Shown piece after piece: positions 4,501 through 22,507 of a DNA stretch of 22,800 bases. Source of the DNA: a virus. The DNA is taken from IMG/VR virus record IMGVR_UViG_3300046532_002411, positions 1 to 22,800 of that record, one strand, 5' to 3'. The position numbers and the translations under genes are program-made. The stretch's first letter is position 1. Each line of letters begins with the position of its first letter. The notes beneath the pieces were generated by a model, which saw only the letters and a program-made list of their open reading frames with translations, was not told the DNA's origin and did no database searches.

Positions 4501-4836
4501 GCTCGCGACATCAAGATGTACTTTGATGGATATCGCCCCGAGGGTACTAACTTCTATGCCTATTACAAGGTGCTATCGGGCACGTTGGATAGCGAGAGGT
4601 TTGCGGATCAGCCATGGCGATTGATGACACAAATCACGCCGGATGGAGTGATCAGCACACGTGCCACACAGTATCGGGAGTTTGAGTTCCGCACGCCGCA
4701 AAGTCAAGCGTTGACATCATCTACGGATACCACGGATCGGTTCAAAGTGTTCTCCATTAAAATAGTGATGTCTACCAACGATACGACCGTCGTGCCGAAG
4801 ATTCGCAACTTCCGCGCTATTGCCTTGGATGAGTAA
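1582..4836 (+). CDS. Large virion structural protein (baseplate/tail-fibre type)
   Basis: This 1084-residue protein matches a large structural protein class common in marine T4-like phages. Diagnostic segments are RARDVVFAANGLRPNATLYPFFD (about 42-64), DPLAETFLVDATRFPQGIMLASVDLVFS (about 482-510), QPYAGSFFKSQNGSTW (about 620-636), and near the end a REVSLAEGFDARDIKMYFDGYRPEGTNFYAYYKV block (about 965-1000). Beta-rich modules of the TGTGTxF type occur twice, at about 107-175 and 815-890. Two GSGY motifs, ILDPGSGY and TTDGSGYLTTPTVTVS, flank the second. The ATG has a clear AAGGA ribosome site eight bases upstream. The stop overlaps the next start as TAATG. The product probably acts in the baseplate or fibre network; exact location is unknown. 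No enzymatic motif was seen. Confidence 0.82.
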   Translation: MSETVTASVSERTGTEFSYTSQTNTQSLGNVILDTSVVHSIRARDVVFAANGLRPNATLYPFFDSVSVQKYVQQANVLELNPVAASDIPSGTFFIGQTLYVKKALTGTVSTITNSTAVTGTSTEFDFELLSNQLVRVKSGVDVFDRYIASVSSNTAATFDSNAALRLNGATLYTLTRVVVADVTPRLSNSGATITYTLKCTRAQQDVDADAILGPGLNYGSATGTFTDRGSRLILPEDNGAYARKFSYAAGSLRPEKMAKDSGVGTVGAEVILPMSSRTSSVLSAASVAVETKTLTVNTAVITSGVVRAYDSNNLRLDVDITDTKIANTTVIYFVGGPGAGQSASVTNYHSANQTAVIDTSALTDITAGQTIYSVGSLSSDGFLANSTVTAGGAGTVSGVLHLQEGQFATGQRLFRLTDSSTNDLSSATTTAETNYVASGLSVSQQPTSIVSRTTNVTRRGVHDSRYWENDTYTSCPEGWADPLAETFLVDATRFPQGIMLASVDLVFSAKPTDDIPVTVELRPVINGYPSSYQVVPCASPEGQASTTLRYDAVNVVTTDLSTAFSNTSAYTRFTMPSLVHLLPGIEYALVVRSDSSEYKVYTAELGAQVLGTDKKVAKQPYAGSFFKSQNGSTWTETPFEDMMFRLNKAKWTLSSGANTGILVARGVQPATTKTFDSMTFYPYEVTFPLVTSTSYSLSVKPEGSGTAVAYSVQPNKLVALSSRSFLTGSYDANAAPQFYPAFANSAPAGQTVSGVSANTIDTIATLTTRSTDVAPYVDLKKMTVLGIQNRINEMELYATQFVILDPGSGYANAAAATGTVTTVASSNVVTGTGSAFLTSVIVGRDVVIGANLAVTVASIESDSQFTATTTAGEARVANAFSTFANLTMTISASNVGANAVGYAVVSTVNSSIVTGTVTSLVLTTDGSGYLTTPTVTVSGNAALTYRGEDSAQHGNALTRYFTREVSLAEGFDARDIKMYFDGYRPEGTNFYAYYKVLSGTLDSERFADQPWRLMTQITPDGVISTRATQYREFEFRTPQSQALTSSTDTTDRFKVFSIKIVMSTNDTTVVPKIRNFRAIALDE

Positions 4837-5042
4837 TGCTGATACAGACCGATGACCGCAAGCATGTACGGGACACCTATAACAACGCGTTACTATTAAC
4901 CGACAAAAAGGCTCTCACGCGGTCGCGGGCCCGACGCGAATCCGCGAAGGGCGTATTGTCCCTTAGATCTGAGATTGACGAATTGCAAGCACATGTGTTA
5001 CAATTGACTTTACATGTCACACAACTTCTTAAGGCAAGATAA
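4836..5042 (+). CDS. Small coiled-coil protein of unknown function
   Basis: This 68-residue protein is highly charged, with a basic middle (KKALTRSRARRESAKG, about 24-39). Its C-terminal third shows heptad-like spacing of leucine and valine (VLSLRSEIDELQAHVLQLTLHVTQLL), suggesting a short coiled coil. It has no signal peptide or membrane segment. It is joined at both ends by one-base TAATG overlaps to a large structural gene upstream and the His-x-Asp gene downstream, so the three are probably translated as a coupled set. That tight coupling is the main reason to believe it is real. I do not recognise a family. It could be a small assembly factor or minor virion protein. Confidence 0.62.
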   Translation: MLIQTDDRKHVRDTYNNALLLTDKKALTRSRARRESAKGVLSLRSEIDELQAHVLQLTLHVTQLLKAR

Positions 5043-5728
5043 TGGCTAAGGTTGCTGGTAGTATTTGGGTCGAAGGAACCGCGCTTCATTATGTGGATAG
5101 CGCGGCTGTAGAATATTATATTATCGGCACCAACAAGGGGTCGGCCGGCGCCGGTATAAATGGCTCAATTTGGATGGAGTCTGATCGTTTACGGTATGTA
5201 GATACCTCTGGAAACATACGCGAATGTTCTACTATAGACACCTATGGTACACATACGGGCGCGGTTGCCGGATCACTGTGGATAGAAAATACTGCGGCTG
5301 GGAATCAGCAGTTACGGTATATTGCCAGCGGAACTGGTGAGAACTCCCCGCATGATGATGTGGCATTTGGGGACGTATCACATTCGGACGTGGCGCATAC
5401 CGATACGACTACACACAACGATATACATACCGATAACCATAGCGACTCTGGCGGGCCCGGCCACACGGATTCGGCCGAAGGTAGTGGCCATGCTGATCAT
5501 AACGATGATCATGGTGACCACGATGATGATAGCGATCACACTGATAACGACGGGCAGCCGCACGGAGATCACAGCGACGGCGCGGGGCACGGCGATCATA
5601 ACGATGATCATGGTGACGAAACTACCGAGTCGCACACCGATAGTTCTAGCCATTCGGACGTAGCACACACAGATGTTCCACACGCAGATGCCACACATGC
5701 TGATCAGCCCATTTACGTGGGTGCGTAA
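5042..5728 (+). CDS. Virion-like protein with 22-fold His-x-Asp C-terminal repeat
   Basis: This 228-residue protein has two parts. Residues 1-98 contain three degenerate copies of a GSIWxExxxLxYxD unit (starting at 6, 41 and 78), a short beta-type module that I associate with marine phage virion proteins. Residues 104-221 are low complexity and dominated by H-x-D: by hand count all 22 histidines in this segment are followed two residues later by aspartate, with the middle position varying among S, T, N, G, A and D. There are no cysteines in the tail. The start overlaps the upstream stop (TAATG). A radical SAM/SPASM gene carrying the same motif at its own C-terminus lies 20 bases downstream. 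The tail could bind divalent metal, be a substrate for modification by the downstream enzymes, or both; these roles are inference. Confidence 0.78.
   Translation: MAKVAGSIWVEGTALHYVDSAAVEYYIIGTNKGSAGAGINGSIWMESDRLRYVDTSGNIRECSTIDTYGTHTGAVAGSLWIENTAAGNQQLRYIASGTGENSPHDDVAFGDVSHSDVAHTDTTTHNDIHTDNHSDSGGPGHTDSAEGSGHADHNDDHGDHDDDSDHTDNDGQPHGDHSDGAGHGDHNDDHGDETTESHTDSSSHSDVAHTDVPHADATHADQPIYVGA
5351..5704 (+). repeat. His-x-Asp coding repeat
   Basis: Codons 104-221 of the preceding gene encode 22 H-x-D units with irregular spacing of 3 to 9 residues. The DNA is not a perfect tandem repeat: codons for His (CAT/CAC) and Asp (GAT/GAC) alternate freely. The protein pattern therefore appears selected rather than produced by recent slippage. 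A longer duplicated phrase, H-G-D-H-N-D-D-H-G-D or close to it, occurs around residues 150-159 and 183-192. Confidence 0.9.
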
Positions 5729-5748
5729 AGTTTTACGGCAAAAATATT

Positions 5749-7008
5749 ATGAGTATTGAGATTCGACCTGTTGGCGTCAGTTGTCAGTTGCAATGCACCT
5801 ATTGTTATGAAGAGGGAATGCGAGAAGAGCAGCGATCACATCGATATGATCGTGATGCGGTATTAGCCTCCATCAAAAAACTTGGTCCCAAGGACCATTT
5901 CTCTTTATTTGGTGGGGAGTGTTTGTTATTGCCACTCCATCATCTTGAGGAACTCCTGTCAATTTCCCATGCCCGATCAGGTCGTTCATCGGTGCAGACT
6001 AATGGCGCATTGATTACCGACAAACATATTGAACTGTTCATTAAGTACAACACACATGTGGGTATTTCATTAGATGGCCCAGATGAATTAAATGACAGTC
6101 GGTGGGCAGGTACATTAGAGGCGACACGCAAGCAGACAGCACGAACGCTTCATGCGATTGATACGTTGCTTTCGTTATCGGTACAACATCCGCGTCTTCG
6201 GCCCAGTCTTATTGTCACTATGCACGCCGGGAATTCTAGTGCAGAACGATTTCCTCGGTTTGTGTCATGGCTTCATGAGTTAGATGATCGGGGGCTTAAA
6301 CAGATAAATCTTCATACAATGGAGATGGATCACAAAGCAGATACATTATACCTGCCACAAGAAGAATTGTCGGATCGGTTATTGGACATTTGGCGAATCC
6401 ATGTTCCAACATTTAAGCAACTACGCATGTCTAAATTTGAGGAGATTTTGAAACTCCTCAGGGGTGCTGATGATGTCGTGTGTCATTGGAAACCGTGCGA
6501 CCCGTGGAATACAAGTGCCGTCAACGGTATTGAGAACGACGGTTCTGTCTCTCACTGCTCGCGAACAAACAAAGACGGGTTCAACTGGATGCCAGCAGAG
6601 GGGTCGGGCGACCCAAATGGTAGTTTCATAGGGCACCCAGGCGCTCGCCACTATGAACGACAGATGGCGCTCTACCAAGCACCACAAGAATTTGGTGGAT
6701 GCAAAGATTGTGAATATTGGTTGATGTGCTACGGTCAATGCCCAGGCGAAGGGCAGTCCAATGATTGGCGAATGCGTTCTACATATTGTTCAACATACAA
6801 GAAGTTATTTGCAGAAGGCGCACGAAGACTTCGTGAGGCGGGGACGATTCCGCTGTGTGACTGGACGAATAGAAAAGAACTTGAGCAGGCAGCGTTTTCG
6901 AAATGGCAGAATCAATCATCGTCACACTTATCAACATTAACCGGGCAGCCCAACGGCGGTAGGCAATCTCACGGCGATCACACGGATCACAATGATAATA
7001 CATTATGA
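5749..7008 (+). CDS. Radical SAM/SPASM enzyme with His-x-Asp C-terminal tail
   Basis: This 419-residue protein is a radical S-adenosylmethionine enzyme. The CX3CX2C cluster site is at C12, C16 and C19, the GGE motif at 55-57, and the SLDGP strand typical of SPASM-type maturases at 107-111. The C-terminal auxiliary-cluster domain shows C250, C270, then C318-X2-C321-X5-C327-X3-C331 and C347, the classic SPASM arrangement. Such enzymes commonly modify peptides or proteins by radical chemistry. Unusually, the last residues add three contiguous H-x-D units (408-416), matching the tail of the gene just upstream, and both share a GQP lead-in. The stop overlaps the next start as ATGA. No clear Shine-Dalgarno is present; the start follows an A-rich stretch. 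By hand count it uses about 14 TTA leucine codons against two to four in the terminase or portal genes, hinting at a different origin. The substrate is inferred, not shown. Confidence 0.88.
   Translation: MSIEIRPVGVSCQLQCTYCYEEGMREEQRSHRYDRDAVLASIKKLGPKDHFSLFGGECLLLPLHHLEELLSISHARSGRSSVQTNGALITDKHIELFIKYNTHVGISLDGPDELNDSRWAGTLEATRKQTARTLHAIDTLLSLSVQHPRLRPSLIVTMHAGNSSAERFPRFVSWLHELDDRGLKQINLHTMEMDHKADTLYLPQEELSDRLLDIWRIHVPTFKQLRMSKFEEILKLLRGADDVVCHWKPCDPWNTSAVNGIENDGSVSHCSRTNKDGFNWMPAEGSGDPNGSFIGHPGARHYERQMALYQAPQEFGGCKDCEYWLMCYGQCPGEGQSNDWRMRSTYCSTYKKLFAEGARRLREAGTIPLCDWTNRKELEQAAFSKWQNQSSSHLSTLTGQPNGGRQSHGDHTDHNDNTL
6970..6996 (+). repeat. Three H-x-D units at the radical SAM C-terminus
   Basis: These codons encode HGD-HTD-HND immediately before the end of the radical SAM protein, beyond the SPASM cysteines and a poorly conserved linker. 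The same three units occur in the upstream His-x-Asp protein. This is outside any domain needed for iron-sulfur binding. Confidence 0.88.
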
Positions 7009-8381
7009 ATGATAAACAGAATGTTCTAGCAAGTGACACCCCCACACTTCCCGATTGGACACGATGGTCGTGGCGAAGTCCAGTTGAACGTGAGTGGTGG
7101 AATCCGTTGTTCAAAGCAGCGGCGAATGCCTATGAAAGTGTTGAACGGTTGTCGGTTGTTGATGGCGTTCGCTCGGCGGCATCGCAGATAATAGCACCCG
7201 AAGAATTAGTAGGGCTCACAGAGTGGGCGCGCAATCATAATATTCTTTGCATACCAATAGATAGAATTAGTTATTCCAATTCATACTCATCGGTAGAAAC
7301 GAAACTAAAAAATGGTGAACGATTTAAGTATCGGGTGTTGTTTGTTCGTCCAGAACAATACGCAGATACCGTCGATTTATCAAATATCTCCTCGCGTTCC
7401 GACCGTCGATCCGCGACGGCGCCGTCATATGTCGACCGATTCGGGAAACTATTAGGCTTTCCCGAATGTTGCCGAAAAGCGTTTCTGGAAACGTGGGGTC
7501 GCGGGCAAGTCGATAGTACATGGGAGCAACATTGTTCGCCCATGTTACCCATGACCAGTACACTGTTGCGGTGGATGGGTCTTCGCCTCGTCTCTCACAT
7601 GCCATGTCATTATAGGTGTGAAGCATCACAAAAGATTGCGGAGCAAATGTTTCAGGTGGGCGCGCGGCATGGATATCTGGAAGAGATGCGATTGATTAAG
7701 GAAGTCCTCGCGTGGCCAGTAAAATGGTCTCGGCTGTTCGGGATTGCGGAGATTGTAACTCCTGCGGTCAAAATTTCCACACGCACCGACTGGACACCTC
7801 GTAAAGATGAGTTCAGTACGACGGGTCCGTATCGACAACCGAAGAAAACGTGGTGGATAAACAACGGATTCGATAATGCTCGGGACCTGGGCCGAGCGCA
7901 CGGGGACATGGTTAACGCGTTAATAACGCAATTACCACAAAAAGCTCGCGTATTGGATCTTGGATGTGGCAATGGGATGTTGCTCCGTCGTCTAACTATA
8001 CATAGACCTGACGTTCGTGTTGCGGGGATTGATAGTAACGCCGATGCGATTCGTGAAGCGCAAGAAACGATTGATTTGCGCTCGACATTTTGGTCAGGCA
8101 AGATTGAGGATGGCATATGGCGGGACTGGAACCCGACCGCCGTGCTATACACACCCGGCCGTATGATGGAGACCAATACAGGGGGGATGTCCGAGGCTGC
8201 CACACTTCGTGTAGCAACATGGATTCGTGATATTCCGTGGCAGTTTCCGTATATCTATGATGACATGATACTACGAAAAATCAATGTGCCGGCATTATGT
8301 GAAGATAAACAACTTCCGGTCCCTCTACCGCTCATTAAGACTCCTCTTGTCGAAATGGGGATAGTCGCACCGTTCACCTAA
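7005..8381 (+). CDS. CC-motif (DUF483-like) domain fused to SAM-dependent methyltransferase
   Basis: This 458-residue protein appears to be a fusion. Around 140-210 is a cysteine-containing domain with KLLGFPECCRKAF (C155, C156) followed by C177 and a PCHYRC pair (C201, C205), resembling the G-x-P-x-C-C signature of the DUF483 group; I hold this assignment loosely. The C-terminal part is a class I methyltransferase: motif I VLDLGCGNG at 317-325 and the acidic post-I strand VAGIDSNADA at 339-348. The segment that follows, PTAVLYTPGRMMET (377-390), probably forms the next strand. Methyl transfer from SAM to an unknown acceptor is the expected reaction; the cysteines could bind metal or iron. 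Its ATGA overlap with the radical SAM gene implies co-translation and a shared pathway, probably on the His-x-Asp protein. Codon use is TTA-rich, like its partner. Confidence 0.75.
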   Translation: MNDKQNVLASDTPTLPDWTRWSWRSPVEREWWNPLFKAAANAYESVERLSVVDGVRSAASQIIAPEELVGLTEWARNHNILCIPIDRISYSNSYSSVETKLKNGERFKYRVLFVRPEQYADTVDLSNISSRSDRRSATAPSYVDRFGKLLGFPECCRKAFLETWGRGQVDSTWEQHCSPMLPMTSTLLRWMGLRLVSHMPCHYRCEASQKIAEQMFQVGARHGYLEEMRLIKEVLAWPVKWSRLFGIAEIVTPAVKISTRTDWTPRKDEFSTTGPYRQPKKTWWINNGFDNARDLGRAHGDMVNALITQLPQKARVLDLGCGNGMLLRRLTIHRPDVRVAGIDSNADAIREAQETIDLRSTFWSGKIEDGIWRDWNPTAVLYTPGRMMETNTGGMSEAATLRVATWIRDIPWQFPYIYDDMILRKINVPALCEDKQLPVPLPLIKTPLVEMGIVAPFT

Positions 8382-11652: not shown

Positions 11653-12590
11653 TGAACACACACTTCAAACATCTGCACATGCGCCGATATCTACTGGCGT
11701 TTGGTTCCCTGTTTGACGATATCACCATCACGCGAGAAAACTCAGATGGTGACGAAGCATTTCGTCAACAGGTGCCATTGCAGTATGGTCCGAAAGAACG
11801 TTGGTTAGTTCATCTGACACAAGATCCTGATTATGGGAAGGGTGTGGGTCAAGTAGTTCCCCGTATGTCGTATGAGATGACGAGTCTCGTCTATGATACG
11901 ACGCGCAAGCTGAATACACTCGATAAGCTCAAGTTCAATAGCAACGAAGCACACAAGCTCGCCAAGCTCTACGTTGGTGTGCCGTATGTGATGAACGTTC
12001 AGTTGTCGGTGTTGGTGAAACTTCAGCAGGATGGAATGCAGATCGTTGAACAGATTCTTCCGTTCTTCACGCCGGATTACACGATTGCTGCGCGCCCGTT
12101 AGAGAACTATCCCGATCTTTTGGATCAGGTGCCCGTTGTTTTACAGAGCGTATCACACTCGGATAACTACGAGGAAGACTTCATCAAGCGGCGCGCCATT
12201 GTCTGGACGTTAGACTTTGCGCTGAAGGTGTTCTTCTATGGTCCGATCAGACAGAGTAGACGAATCGAAGAAGTTATCGTCAACCTCTACAATTCGCCAC
12301 ATGCGGATCTTGCGGCGCCGACACCGGATGCCTTACCGAAGGCGACGATCAATGTACTCGCGGATCCGCCGACACAGAACGTTTCATCGGGTACGGCGAT
12401 TACGTCGAATACAACGATCACCGAAGTCCTCACTGCGGCCGGCTCCTCGGAGTCACCGTCTTCGTCCGCATCACCGTCATTCTCGCCGTCTGCTTCACAG
12501 TCACCATCGGCCTCTGTGTCGCTATCACAATCCCCGTCTAGCTCGCAATCAGCATCGGTGTCGCCGTCGCCATCGGTATCTCCATCATAG
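11652..12590 (+). CDS. gp15: Tail sheath stabiliser gp15-like, Ser/Pro-rich tail
   Basis: This 312-residue protein resembles T4 gp15, the tail-terminator that caps and stabilises the contracted sheath and joins tail to neck. Family segments are RRYLLAFGSLFDDITITREN (11-30), VPLQYGPKERWLVHL (about 41-55), LPRM-type VVPRMSYEMTSLVYDTTRKLNT (about 72-93) and the C-terminal core DFIKRRAIVWTLDFALKVFFYGP. Core length fits T4 gp15 (272), but from about residue 264 there is an added tail almost wholly Ser and Pro with some Ala, Gln and Val. This tail is not needed for the known fold and may be exposed on the neck. It overlaps gp14 by one base. Confidence 0.9.
   Translation: MNTHFKHLHMRRYLLAFGSLFDDITITRENSDGDEAFRQQVPLQYGPKERWLVHLTQDPDYGKGVGQVVPRMSYEMTSLVYDTTRKLNTLDKLKFNSNEAHKLAKLYVGVPYVMNVQLSVLVKLQQDGMQIVEQILPFFTPDYTIAARPLENYPDLLDQVPVVLQSVSHSDNYEEDFIKRRAIVWTLDFALKVFFYGPIRQSRRIEEVIVNLYNSPHADLAAPTPDALPKATINVLADPPTQNVSSGTAITSNTTITEVLTAAGSSESPSSSASPSFSPSASQSPSASVSLSQSPSSSQSASVSPSPSVSPS
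12442..12587 (+). repeat. Ser/Pro low-complexity coding repeat
   Basis: Degenerate TCA-CCG-TC type units encode the C-terminal Ser/Pro tail of the gp15-like protein. Read in antisense, the same repeat yields an Asp/Gly-rich open frame, which I regard as an artefact. Confidence 0.85.
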
Positions 12591-13075: not shown

Positions 13076-14170
13076 ATGAATCCATCGCCATATAGCCCGA
13101 TGAAAGTGTACTGGCATCGCGACCGCCTCGATGCACTCGCTCGCGGCGAAGTCCCTTCACCCACACAAGTCCAACTGATCATCAGCGATCTTTGTAATCA
13201 GGATTGTAGCTTTTGCGCGTATCGTATGAGTGGCAACCTCAGCAATGAATTGTTTGGTGAGGCGCGTGAAGATGGCAGTGTCAATAACAATCCGAATCGT
13301 ATGATTTCGTACGAGAAGATTATCGAGATTTTAGAAGACTCCGCAGCGATGGGCGTCAAGGCGATTCAGTTGACCGGTGGTGGCGAACCCACTGTACATC
13401 CCAAGTTTGAACAGGTTGTGGAAAAGTGTTACGAGCTTGGATTGGAAGTTGGCGTCGTGACGAATGGTGTCAAGCTCACACCGAAGCTGATTGATCTACT
13501 CACGAAAGCGATGTGGGTGCGCGTGAGTGTGGATGCATCAACCGTCGATTCGTATGTCTCCATTCGTAATGTGCCTATCGCGCACTACACGCGTGTGTGG
13601 AATAACATCAAAGCGTTAGCGGAACGAAAGAAGGCCACGGGTAGCAACGTAACGATTGGTGTCGGGTTCGTTGTCACCAAGGAAAATTATAAAGAAGTCG
13701 TTGATGCTACCGCCCAAGCACGGGCAGCCGGGGTGGACAACTTTCGTATTAGCGCCGTATTTCAGCCAGAAGACGAAAAGTATTTTGAGACATTTCACGC
13801 AGAGGCCGTCAAGCTCTGTAGTGATGCGGAAGTATTAGGGTCAGATACATATCAAGTCGTGAATATGTTTGGTGACCGCGTGAGTGACTTGGTGCTGAAG
13901 TATCCCGATTATGAGTTCTGCGGGTATCAACACTTCAATACCTATATCGGTGCGGACCTGAATGTGTATCGTTGTTGTGTGCTTGCGTATAACACACGCG
14001 GCGTTGTTGGTTCACTCAAGGAACAGACGTTTGCACACTTGTGGGCAAATGACGCGCCCGGCGCATTTAAGGGCTTCGATGCGGGTGGATGTCCTCGCTG
14101 CCAGTTCAATAATAAGAACCGCGAAATCATTCGGGCTCTGGTGACGCCGCCACATGTGAATTTTGTATGA
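13076..14170 (+). CDS. Radical SAM protein with SPASM/twitch-like C-terminus
   Basis: This 364-residue protein is a second radical SAM enzyme, not closely similar to the first. The CX3CX2C site is C40, C44, C47; GGGEP is at 101-105; VVTNG at 127-131; and VRVSVDAST at 148-156. C-terminal cysteines C282, C300, C301, C339 and C342 suit an auxiliary cluster of the SPASM or shorter twitch type (YRCC..GVVGSLKEQTFAHLW..GGCPRCQ). The substrate is unknown. It sits between small and large terminase genes, and its stop overlaps the glycosyltransferase start as ATGA, so the two are probably made together and may act in one pathway. A GAGG ribosome site is seven bases from the start. Codon use resembles the neighbouring structural genes, suggesting longer residence in the genome than the first cassette. 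Confidence 0.88.
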   Translation: MNPSPYSPMKVYWHRDRLDALARGEVPSPTQVQLIISDLCNQDCSFCAYRMSGNLSNELFGEAREDGSVNNNPNRMISYEKIIEILEDSAAMGVKAIQLTGGGEPTVHPKFEQVVEKCYELGLEVGVVTNGVKLTPKLIDLLTKAMWVRVSVDASTVDSYVSIRNVPIAHYTRVWNNIKALAERKKATGSNVTIGVGFVVTKENYKEVVDATAQARAAGVDNFRISAVFQPEDEKYFETFHAEAVKLCSDAEVLGSDTYQVVNMFGDRVSDLVLKYPDYEFCGYQHFNTYIGADLNVYRCCVLAYNTRGVVGSLKEQTFAHLWANDAPGAFKGFDAGGCPRCQFNNKNREIIRALVTPPHVNFV

Positions 14171-14904
14171 TGCGAGCGTCGGTCGTGTTGTCTACATACA
14201 ACCGTGCCGACATTCTGAACGGCACACTTGCTTCCATCTTTCGTCAGCAGGTACCGTTTGACTATGAGGTCATCGTCGTTGATGACGGTTCGTCTGATCA
14301 CACGACGGAGGTGCTGTCACGCTATCCCGTGGTCACGGAACGTATCGAGCGCCCAGAGGGACATCGCAATCCAGCATATCCACGCAATCGAGCTATCGCA
14401 TTAGCGTCGAGTGATATTCTGATCATGCAGTCGGATGATGTATGGCACGAAACAGCACAGACGATTGAAGAACTCACCAATGCGGCGACCGCACAGCCGA
14501 ACGCCGCGTTCTTCGCCACCGTCTATAATGTCAACGCCGACGGTGTGGTGATTGATACGTTTGTCCATCCGCGCACACGACGGCGCGCATTATTCTTTCT
14601 TGGTGCCATTCACAAGTCGCGTCTGTGTGCGATTGGTGGAAATGATGAAGCCTTCACGGAAGCAGGATATGAAGATGCGTGGTTGCGAGACTGTCTACAG
14701 CACGGCGCGCAGTGCCCGTTCGTGTTCTTGAGCGGGCCCGTCGCGCACCACCAAGATCATACGCGCCCCTCGAAAGATTACGGTACACAGCGTGGCACGA
14801 AGGCGATGCGGAAACTTTATAAGCACAAATGTACGGAAGCGTCACGCGGAGCTATTCCATGGCGCGCAGAGATAAGTAGTTTATATGCCGAAGAGTACGC
14901 GTAG
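14167..14904 (+). CDS. Family 2 glycosyltransferase
   Basis: This 245-residue protein has the GT-A fold features of family 2 glycosyltransferases: SVVLSTYNRADIL (5-17), VIVVDDGSSD (35-44), the metal-binding DxD-like LIMQSDDVW (85-93), and an acidic GYEDAWLRDCLQHG catalytic-base region (168-180). HHQDH at 194-198 may add metal ligands. It transfers a sugar from a nucleotide donor to an unidentified acceptor. No membrane segment is seen, so it should be cytoplasmic. It overlaps the radical SAM gene by four bases and the large terminase gene by 20, placing it firmly in the late operon. Possible acceptors are virion proteins, for example the Ser/Pro tail of gp15, or DNA; neither is shown. Two ATG codons at 14167 and 14170 are both possible starts. 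Confidence 0.88.
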   Translation: MMRASVVLSTYNRADILNGTLASIFRQQVPFDYEVIVVDDGSSDHTTEVLSRYPVVTERIERPEGHRNPAYPRNRAIALASSDILIMQSDDVWHETAQTIEELTNAATAQPNAAFFATVYNVNADGVVIDTFVHPRTRRRALFFLGAIHKSRLCAIGGNDEAFTEAGYEDAWLRDCLQHGAQCPFVFLSGPVAHHQDHTRPSKDYGTQRGTKAMRKLYKHKCTEASRGAIPWRAEISSLYAEEYA

Positions 14905-21621: not shown

Positions 21622-21762
21622 ATGAATTCATTTACACAACTTGTCCAGCACGTAAAGAACGCCGATTGGTCTGGTGCGAATCAGGTCTTCTCAGAAATCA
21701 TGCAGCAGAAGACCGCAGACAGAATCGAAGTTGAGAAGAAGACGATATTCAAGGAAGGTAAA
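21622..21762 (+). repeat. Duplicated 141-bp segment, copy A
   Basis: The first 47 codons match 22043-22183. By hand comparison the first 63 bases are identical and the remaining 78 have nine differences, mostly silent; the amino-acid changes are V to I, K to Q and I to V. Identity begins at the start codon and stops at the shared GGTAAA. Confidence 0.93.
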
Positions 21763-22026
21763 GGCAAGCTAGGGCCCGGTGGATACGGCGCGCCAGGTGA
21801 GGACGATGGTGGTGTCAGGGAAGATGCGGAAAGTGGCTCGGACGGTTACAAAGCCTACTTCAAGTCTATGATGAAGAAGCACGGGTATGACTCTCCCGCC
21901 GATATTCCAGCCGACAAGAAAGACGACTTCTTTAACGCAGTCGATAAGGGCTACAAAGCTAAGAACGAAGCTGTCGATGATGACGATGACGGAGCAGCAA
22001 TACGTCGCTCTGCGGAGGGACGGTAA
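21622..22026 (+). CDS. gp67: Prohead core protein gp67-like, copy A (acidic C-terminus)
   Basis: This 134-residue protein has an N-terminus (MNSFTQLVQHVKNADWSGANQVFSEIMQQKTADRIEVEK, 1-39) resembling T4 gp67, an internal scaffolding-core protein encoded just after the portal and cleaved by the gp21 protease. IFKE followed by G at 42-46 is a plausible but unproven cleavage site. After a Gly-rich linker comes YKAYFKSMMKKHGYDSPADIPADKKDDFFNAVDKGYKAKNE (about 75-115), a short helical motif common in phage small proteins, then an acidic DDDDD run. An AGAGGT ribosome site precedes the ATG. Its first 47 codons are duplicated in the next gene. Confidence 0.78.
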   Translation: MNSFTQLVQHVKNADWSGANQVFSEIMQQKTADRIEVEKKTIFKEGKGKLGPGGYGAPGEDDGGVREDAESGSDGYKAYFKSMMKKHGYDSPADIPADKKDDFFNAVDKGYKAKNEAVDDDDDGAAIRRSAEGR

Positions 22027-22042
22027 CCAGCAGCCGCACGTC

Positions 22043-22183
22043 ATGAATTCATTTACACAACTTGTCCAGCACGTAAAGAACGCCGATTGGTCTGGTGCGA
22101 ATCAGATCTTCTCGGAGATCATGCAGCAGAAGACTGCGGATAGAATCGAAGTTGAGAAGCAGACGGTGTTCAAGGAAGGTAAA
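22043..22183 (+). repeat. Duplicated 141-bp segment, copy B
   Basis: Direct-repeat partner of 21622-21762, 421 bases downstream, in a different reading frame relative to the window. The upstream ribosome site of copy A is not duplicated. Confidence 0.93.
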
Positions 22184-22507
22184 AGCGTTGAGCGGATCAT
22201 GCGGGATATAGGCAGCCATGACGCTGCACACAGCGGATGGTCTCCCGACCGCGTCGCGGATGAGGTTTATAAAGAGCTAACTGGTAACCGCAATAAGAAC
22301 CGCCAAAGAAGACTGCCGCCCGCAGCCGTCGTTAATAGTGCGATAAAAGATTTCTTAAAGAGCGGTGAGCGGCCGGCGGCTCACGGTAGATCAGCATGGC
22401 GTCGTGCTGGCCAGGTGCTGGACAAGGCCACCAAGGCAGGCATCAAATGGAATCAGAGGTTACTTAAACCGGCAGACCGGCGCCAATTGGAACTGAAACT
22501 CAGGTAG
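22043..22507 (+). CDS. Prohead core gp67-like copy B with unrelated basic C-terminus
   Basis: I start this 154-residue protein at the ATG at 22043 because the gp67-like homology begins there; the frame stays open further upstream only by chance overlap with copy A. Residues 1-47 are nearly identical to copy A. Residues 48-154 are unrelated to it and strongly basic (NRNKNRQRRL, GRSAWRRAGQVLDKATKAGIKWNQRLLKPADRRQLELKLR), with SVERIMRDIGSHDAAHSGWSPDRVADEVYKELTG at 48-81. I recognise no family for this part. It may bind DNA or be cargo carried into the head by the shared N-terminus, as T4 internal proteins are by their targeting peptides; this is inference. No close Shine-Dalgarno is present; GGAGGG lies about 25 bases upstream. 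In T4 the corresponding position is gene 68. Confidence 0.7.
   Translation: MNSFTQLVQHVKNADWSGANQIFSEIMQQKTADRIEVEKQTVFKEGKSVERIMRDIGSHDAAHSGWSPDRVADEVYKELTGNRNKNRQRRLPPAAVVNSAIKDFLKSGERPAAHGRSAWRRAGQVLDKATKAGIKWNQRLLKPADRRQLELKLR

Follow-up and report, generated by a model that had tools for sequence, protein, structure and literature searches.

Viruses of Bacteria and Archaea carry a trio of genes encoding a protein with a tail of His-x-Asp (H-x-D) units, a radical SAM/SPASM enzyme and a DUF483-like protein, and the best explanation for this cassette is a virus-borne, RiPP-like maturation system acting on the tail (we put the probability of this reading at roughly 0.6). The cassette probably staples dozens of H-x-D units within one long tail, and this would be the first known case of a virus building such modified polymers into its own proteins. 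More tentatively, tailed viruses of Bacteria and Archaea may share an enzyme system dedicated to placing tens to about a hundred aromatic-Cbeta cyclophanes in a single virion protein, i.e., a genetically encoded, crosslinked rod.

If this is true, it would be the first use of RiPP-type chemistry as virus building material and would supply the first His-Asp/Asn cyclophanes, made by a promiscuous multi-site enzyme that takes His, Phe and Tyr. It would also explain a widespread, uncharacterised viral gene trio, give DUF483 a role, and show a way in which virions in hot springs, brines and sea water could acquire appendages that are stiff and protease-proof. In the literature searched, which was mainly open-access, we found no paper proposing that a radical SAM enzyme modifies a structural protein of a virus, nor a description of many carbon-carbon crosslinks installed post-translationally in a virus protein.

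The cassette and its genes

The window (i.e., the whole 22.8-kb stretch of a virus record analysed here) is a T4-like myovirus structural module, with genes for neck, head-closure, tail sheath stabiliser, small and large terminase, tail sheath, tail tube and portal proteins. These matches bear out the placement of the cassette in a virion module by the initial annotation: it is embedded between two large phrog_358-group proteins, on the left, and the T4-like virion genes, and its ORFs, all on the + strand, overlap or are tightly spaced. A 68-aa ORF (4836-5042) with a weak virion-structural match (phrog_473, E 0.0012) overlaps by one base the H-x-D gene (5042-5728), which is the first of the trio. 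The radical SAM gene (5749-7008) follows, and the third ORF (7005-8381) begins inside its stop codon with an ATGA overlap, which is the start/stop coupling reported initially.

Other parts of the window have peculiarities of their own. A second, unrelated radical SAM/SPASM gene (13076-14904, with a Pfam SPASM match and without an H-x-D tail) overlaps a family 2 glycosyltransferase gene and is inserted between the small and large terminase genes. The homologue of the tail sheath stabiliser is unusual for such a protein in having a Ser/Pro-rich repeat, SPSSSASPSFSPSASQSPSAS... (12380-12590), at its end; and at 21622-22200 there are two successive copies of the peptide MNSFTQLVQHVKNADWSGANQ..FSEIMQQKTADRIEVEK, where a short virion gene has apparently been tandem-duplicated and the downstream parts are divergent.

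The 228-aa H-x-D protein has two dissimilar parts. Its N-terminal domain (5042-5350; residues 1-104) comprises three GSxWxEG...LxYxD beta-hairpin repeats, which are conserved in 16 aligned homologues and are predicted by AF2 to form beta strands only (pLDDT about 80-97); we propose that it serves as an anchor or as the part recognised by the enzyme, and a fold search with this domain returned nothing significant (best E 0.15). The tail (5351-5704; residues 104-221) contains 22 H-x-D units and one F-x-D, is the proposed multi-site substrate, and leads into a C-terminal cap, HADQPIYVGA (5696-5725), in whose HxDQP motif D221 and P223 are invariant (alignment A3). That every histidine of the C-terminal half lies in an H-x-D motif, as first noticed, holds for all 22 His after residue 100, against 5.1 +/- 1.8 motifs (maximum 13) in 20,000 shuffles of the same residues. 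Because the His and Asp codons of the tail are mixed, and Tandem Repeats Finder detects no tandem array over it (only one weak 34-bp match), the pattern is not a simple DNA repeat and is held at the protein level. The unmodified tail is predicted to be disordered (AF2 pLDDT under 50), and since the protein has no Lys or Arg after residue 92, the tail would escape standard tryptic proteomics.

The assignment of the second gene to the SPASM-type radical SAM enzymes was confirmed by a Pfam Radical_SAM match (54.5 bits), the CX3CX2C motif and a SPASM cysteine pattern, CX2CX5CX3C with flanking Cys. The Pfam SPASM model itself does not match ORF 5749-7008; anSME-type SPASM models align to the enzyme over residues 4-362. 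Among curated models, those of anaerobic sulfatase maturase and of the cyclophane maturases AmcB and YhhB score highest, yet none comes near its cut-off: the enzyme reaches 86 of 349 bits with TIGR03942 (anaerobic sulfatase maturase), its top NCBIfam score for any model, then 75 of 425 with AmcB, 61 of 445 with YhhB, 49 of 310 with GrrM and 34.5 of 370 with FxsB. The radical SAM core and SPASM cysteines are invariant in the enzyme alignment (A1), and CX2CX5CX3C is present in all complete family enzymes except that of L029. On the basis of its homologues and this cysteine set, the enzyme is a putative maturase of three-residue cyclophanes.

The initial annotation missed that the enzyme has an H-x-D tail of its own (SHGDHTDHND; HGDHTDHND at 6970-6996), in which H408, G409, D410, H411 and D413 are invariant in alignment A1. 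Such a tail occurs in 38 of 51 distinct radical SAM ORFs of the family, several of these ORFs being truncated. Viral contigs L016-L020 encode two tandem radical SAM paralogues whose tails reach 25 H-x-D units, often HGDHTD, and in the substrates of these contigs H-x-D is mixed with F-x-N and F-x-S.

The third gene, described at the outset as a CC-motif domain fused to a methyltransferase, is resolved into a DUF483-like domain (7038-7859) and a clear class I SAM-dependent methyltransferase (7860-8381). The first of these carries G[FY]PxCC and PCxxxC motifs and scores 23.6 bits against PF04467 (DUF483, a domain of unknown function), just under the Pfam cut-off of 25; by profile it is homologous to the DUF483-domain protein of the Thermus phage Cumys. 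C155, C156, H198, C201 and C205 are invariant over 25 sequences, and C201 is replaced by His in the Thermus and phiLo proteins; as a set, these residues could form a metal or Fe-S site. In the AF2 model of the fusion protein (mean pLDDT 89) the DUF483 domain is mostly above 85, and fold searches with the whole model listed only methyltransferases, for residues 280-458, making the C-terminal half an ordinary class I methyltransferase. Since the methyltransferase is missing from the Thermus, haloarchaeal and Paenibacillus versions of the cassette, it cannot be the core step and is regarded as accessory; the DUF483-like domain is the proposed essential partner.

Distribution and association of enzyme and tail

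The cassette recurs in viruses whose bacterial hosts live in the sea or in hot springs. Thermus phages Cumys, phiMa and phiLo encode enzymes 37-40% identical to that of the window, and in Cumys and phiMa the enzyme gene is preceded by one encoding the same GSxWxEG N-domain, 54 or 53 H-x-D units and the same HADQP cap, and is followed by a gene that in Cumys is annotated as DUF483. phiLo has two H-x-D proteins, of 99 and 72 units, near its enzyme. About 25 further cassette loci are present in IMG/VR, two cyanobacterial genomes carry the cassette, and in a Paenibacillus version the enzyme and DUF483 form a single protein. A haloarchaeal provirus (on a Halomicrococcus plasmid, with a baseplate J gene upstream) has the full trio, and in its tail D or N stands at +2 after 16 of 16 His and 8 of 10 Tyr. 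Substrate length varies among cassettes from about 170 to more than 1000 aa, and the number of units reaches about 100. A Halorussus plasmid (L299, 7001-9206) has a radical SAM (30% identical) and DUF483 pair with no H-x-D gene within 7 kb.

The initial annotation had proposed that the repeat tail is a multi-site substrate and that H-x-D proteins should co-occur with such enzymes. We collected family loci with the enzyme profile only, and took as controls 120 loci of other radical SAM enzymes that the same scans had found. Dense H-x-D coding (i.e., at least six H-x-[DN] within 60 residues) adjoins the enzyme in 30/30 family loci and in 0/120 controls; by a looser H-x-D count the figures are 30/30 and 7/120 (Fisher P 3e-25). 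Many of the 30 loci are close relatives, and 18 are left after removal of redundancy. A separate H-x-D gene is present in 29 of the 30, and the remaining locus, an 8-kb fragment (L027), qualifies solely by the H-x-D tail of the enzyme itself. DUF483 accompanies the enzyme in 27/30 family loci, the contig ending too early in the other three, and in 2/120 controls, one of which (L109) contains a radical SAM and DUF483 pair and no recognised repeat.

The association also holds in reverse. Two DNA patterns written for H-x-D-rich coding, with no reference to the enzyme, retrieved at least 92 loci, at least 31 of them with a dense H-x-D ORF. Far from H-x-D proteins occurring mostly without such enzymes, which the annotation had named as the outcome that would speak against it, all 24 of the non-trivial H-x-D-rich viral records among the matches listed hold the enzyme (22 in the locus and two elsewhere in the record; six of these contigs had also come up in the enzyme search). 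Records with simple tandem repeats (HLDHLD, HKDHKD, etc.) contain it in 0/7 cases among the matches listed, the split between simple and non-simple repeats being our own judgement. This two-way association, together with conservation of the trio, lends good support to the multi-site substrate idea, and the H-x-D tail is, on these sequence comparisons, very probably the substrate of the radical SAM enzyme.

The tail code, the proposed chemistry and its rivals

The rule governing the tails is broader than the H-x-D motif first recognised, being aromatic-x-[D/N]. Across 19 non-redundant tails, D or N stands at +2 after 97.6% of His, 49.5% of Phe, 32.7% of Tyr, 25% of Trp and 4.8% of non-aromatic residues; and F/Y/W-x-[DN] occurs 126 times, as opposed to 28.6 +/- 4.8 (maximum 48) in 2,000 shuffles that kept all H-x-Z positions fixed. 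Such tail counts are not independent, owing to internal duplications, and the pattern recurs in most tails. Ser occupies +2 after Phe in a further quarter of cases (before redundancy removal) and after His in about 0%; in one clade H-x-N is commoner than H-x-D, and many tail aromatics, mostly Tyr, have no D or N at +2. Units never interleave: a spacing of 1 was seen 0 times against about 115 expected, and the minimum spacing is 3. That only aromatics dictate D/N at +2, and that units do not overlap, is what an i,i+2 ring would lead one to expect.

Known triceptide enzymes link the ring of an aromatic residue i with the beta-carbon at i+2, in the pairs Phe-Asn, Phe-Ser, Tyr-Asp, Trp-Asn/Asp, His-Ala and His-Arg (PMC11002830); the literature searched contained no example of a His-to-Asp crosslink as such. 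Judged by residue spacing, the tail units follow this i,i+2 pattern of three-residue cyclophanes, and the enzyme probably forms a crosslink between the aromatic ring and the beta-carbon at +2. The RiPP-like reading offered initially is thus supported, its chemistry being narrowed to aromatic(i)-Cbeta(i+2) crosslinks by the tail code and the triceptide precedent. Under the proposed mechanism, the substrate would be a folded beta-hairpin N-domain bearing a long tail that lacks Lys and Arg and consists of aromatic-x-[Asp/Asn] units without overlap, along which the enzyme would work repeatedly. In each unit, a beta-hydrogen would be abstracted from residue i+2 and the carbon coupled to the ring of residue i (His, also Phe or Tyr), so that the product would be a row of three-residue cyclophanes, each with a mass change of -2.016 Da. 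The DUF483 protein would be an obligate partner, in peptide handling or in metal or Fe-S delivery through its four-Cys site; the fused methyltransferase would add an optional tailoring step; and the enzyme's own H-x-D tail would probably be modified too, or would dock the substrate. The end product might be a rod, stiff and resistant to proteases, carried by a tail fibre or another part of the virion.

The enzyme could also act on the tail by other means, such as C-alpha epimerisation, beta-hydroxylation or oxidation, methylation (by the fused methyltransferase) or another His-Asp bond. Radical SAM/SPASM enzymes are chemically diverse, the association data are silent on the bond formed, and a methyltransferase is fused in many members. 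We nevertheless consider such chemistry unlikely: the restriction of the +2 preference to aromatics and the absence of overlapping units point to an i,i+2 ring, and several members have no methyltransferase. Thioether (sactipeptide/ranthipeptide) chemistry is itself unlikely because the tails are nearly devoid of Cys. Less probable again is a metal-binding (iron, zinc or calcium) fibre whose ligands the enzyme tunes, or that it leaves alone while modifying something else. There are HxH iron sites at the T4 fibre tip, fibres with chelated iron are known, and His and Asp are good ligands in tails that are acidic (pI 4.4); however, the near-perfect two-way linkage to one enzyme family speaks against such a fibre, as does the replacement of His by Phe/Tyr, and of Asp by Asn/Ser, in the same pattern, which metal binding leaves unexplained.

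Modification of nucleic acid by the gene trio, as proposed for the Cumys/phiMa module (PMC11437467), would fit the KilA-N DNA-binding domain found in a cyanobacterial tail protein, but that proposal is silent on the histidine repeats. We consider it very improbable, given that the conserved third gene encodes a repeat protein whose composition tracks the enzyme, and that no deazapurine gene was present among the Scytonematopsis neighbours scanned. Finally, repetitive coding sequence expands easily, and some viral H-x-D runs are indeed simple tandem repeats, so that the tails might be low-complexity drift with no tie to the enzyme. Yet the simple-repeat proteins are those found without the enzyme, whereas the window tail combines mixed codons, no tandem DNA array, His in perfect register and a conserved cap; a chance or low-complexity origin is contradicted by the shuffles, by Tandem Repeats Finder and by the association in both directions, and we regard its probability as negligible.

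Returning to RiPP-like maturation of the tail, the likely site of its product in viruses is suggested by the position of the cassette among virion genes (in Cumys it comes after baseplate and tail-fibre genes) and by the fusion of the tail to laminin-G-containing proteins in two contigs, one of these proteins having a virion-structural match. From gene position and fusions, the H-x-D product is, on balance, likely to be a virion fibre or decoration. In Scytonematopsis (L082, 9113-9877) an H-x-D tail is fused to a KilA-N domain in ordinary chromosomal surroundings, which implies that the tail, as a module, serves more than one purpose and is not always a virion part.

Relation to known systems

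Kolesnik et al. 2024 (PMC11437467) described the radical SAM module of Cumys and phiMa, recognised a functional link among the three genes, and noted the DUF483 fusions and the prophage and cyanobacterial copies. The window contains homologues of all three genes (radical SAM, DUF483 protein and third gene), with the gene order preserved. Those authors suggested DNA modification, on account of homologues near deazapurine genes in cyanobacteria, and do not mention the histidine repeats, whereas we read the repeat protein as a substrate. The present analysis newly adds this reading of the substrate, the aromatic-x-[D/N] code, the tests of association and the copies in Archaea. The DUF483-like domain resembles PF04467 in its G[FY]PxCC motif and in an overall match over residues 145-210, and differs in having a fusion partner, either a methyltransferase or (in Paenibacillus) the radical SAM enzyme.

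Among other candidates, a preprint on the N4 vRNAP, which matched a search for cyclophane and radical SAM, was set aside because it only cites an unrelated fold, and the radical SAM clusters of Campylobacter phages (PMC2853527) have no stated tie to a repeat protein. Membership in the His-Xaa-Ser (Hxs) system of Haft and Basu (HxsA-D) is not indicated by the models: the window repeat protein has no NCBIfam match, and the enzyme is not HxsB by model score (cut-off 370). As far as that system is presented where PMC9062424 mentions it, the two share a His-x-Z repeat protein beside a radical SAM maturase. The viral cassette differs in having H-x-D rather than H-x-S, a DUF483(-methyltransferase) partner, a mostly viral distribution and, as a rule, a single radical enzyme (some contigs have two paralogues).

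One of the 120 control loci, from a Pyrinomonadaceae genome (L157, 8756-13192), encodes an HxsB-like radical SAM enzyme, which reaches 283 bits against the HxsB model (cut-off 370). Two DUF483-like genes adjoin it, and the protein encoded upstream terminates in seven H-D-R units. The locus is possibly a His-Arg triceptide-like system; its H-D-R repeats match the His-Arg chemistry of YhhB, and as a distant relative it supports the theme. By combining an HxsB-like enzyme, DUF483 and H-D-R units, this locus ties the viral cassette to the Hxs idea without making the cassette a member of that system.

A further parallel is with the triceptide enzymes (XncB, OscB/GrrM, MscB/FxsB, YxdB, HaaB and YhhB; PMC11002830), in which a radical SAM/SPASM enzyme likewise lies next to a protein with repeated aromatic(i)/Asp-Asn-Ser(i+2) units. 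However, the known triceptide substrates are short leader-core peptides, whereas those considered here are long virus proteins with a folded N-domain, in which the bond is predicted from residue patterns; and the viral cassette is further set apart by its DUF483 partner and by an enzyme that, in the window, falls below the cut-offs of all curated models.
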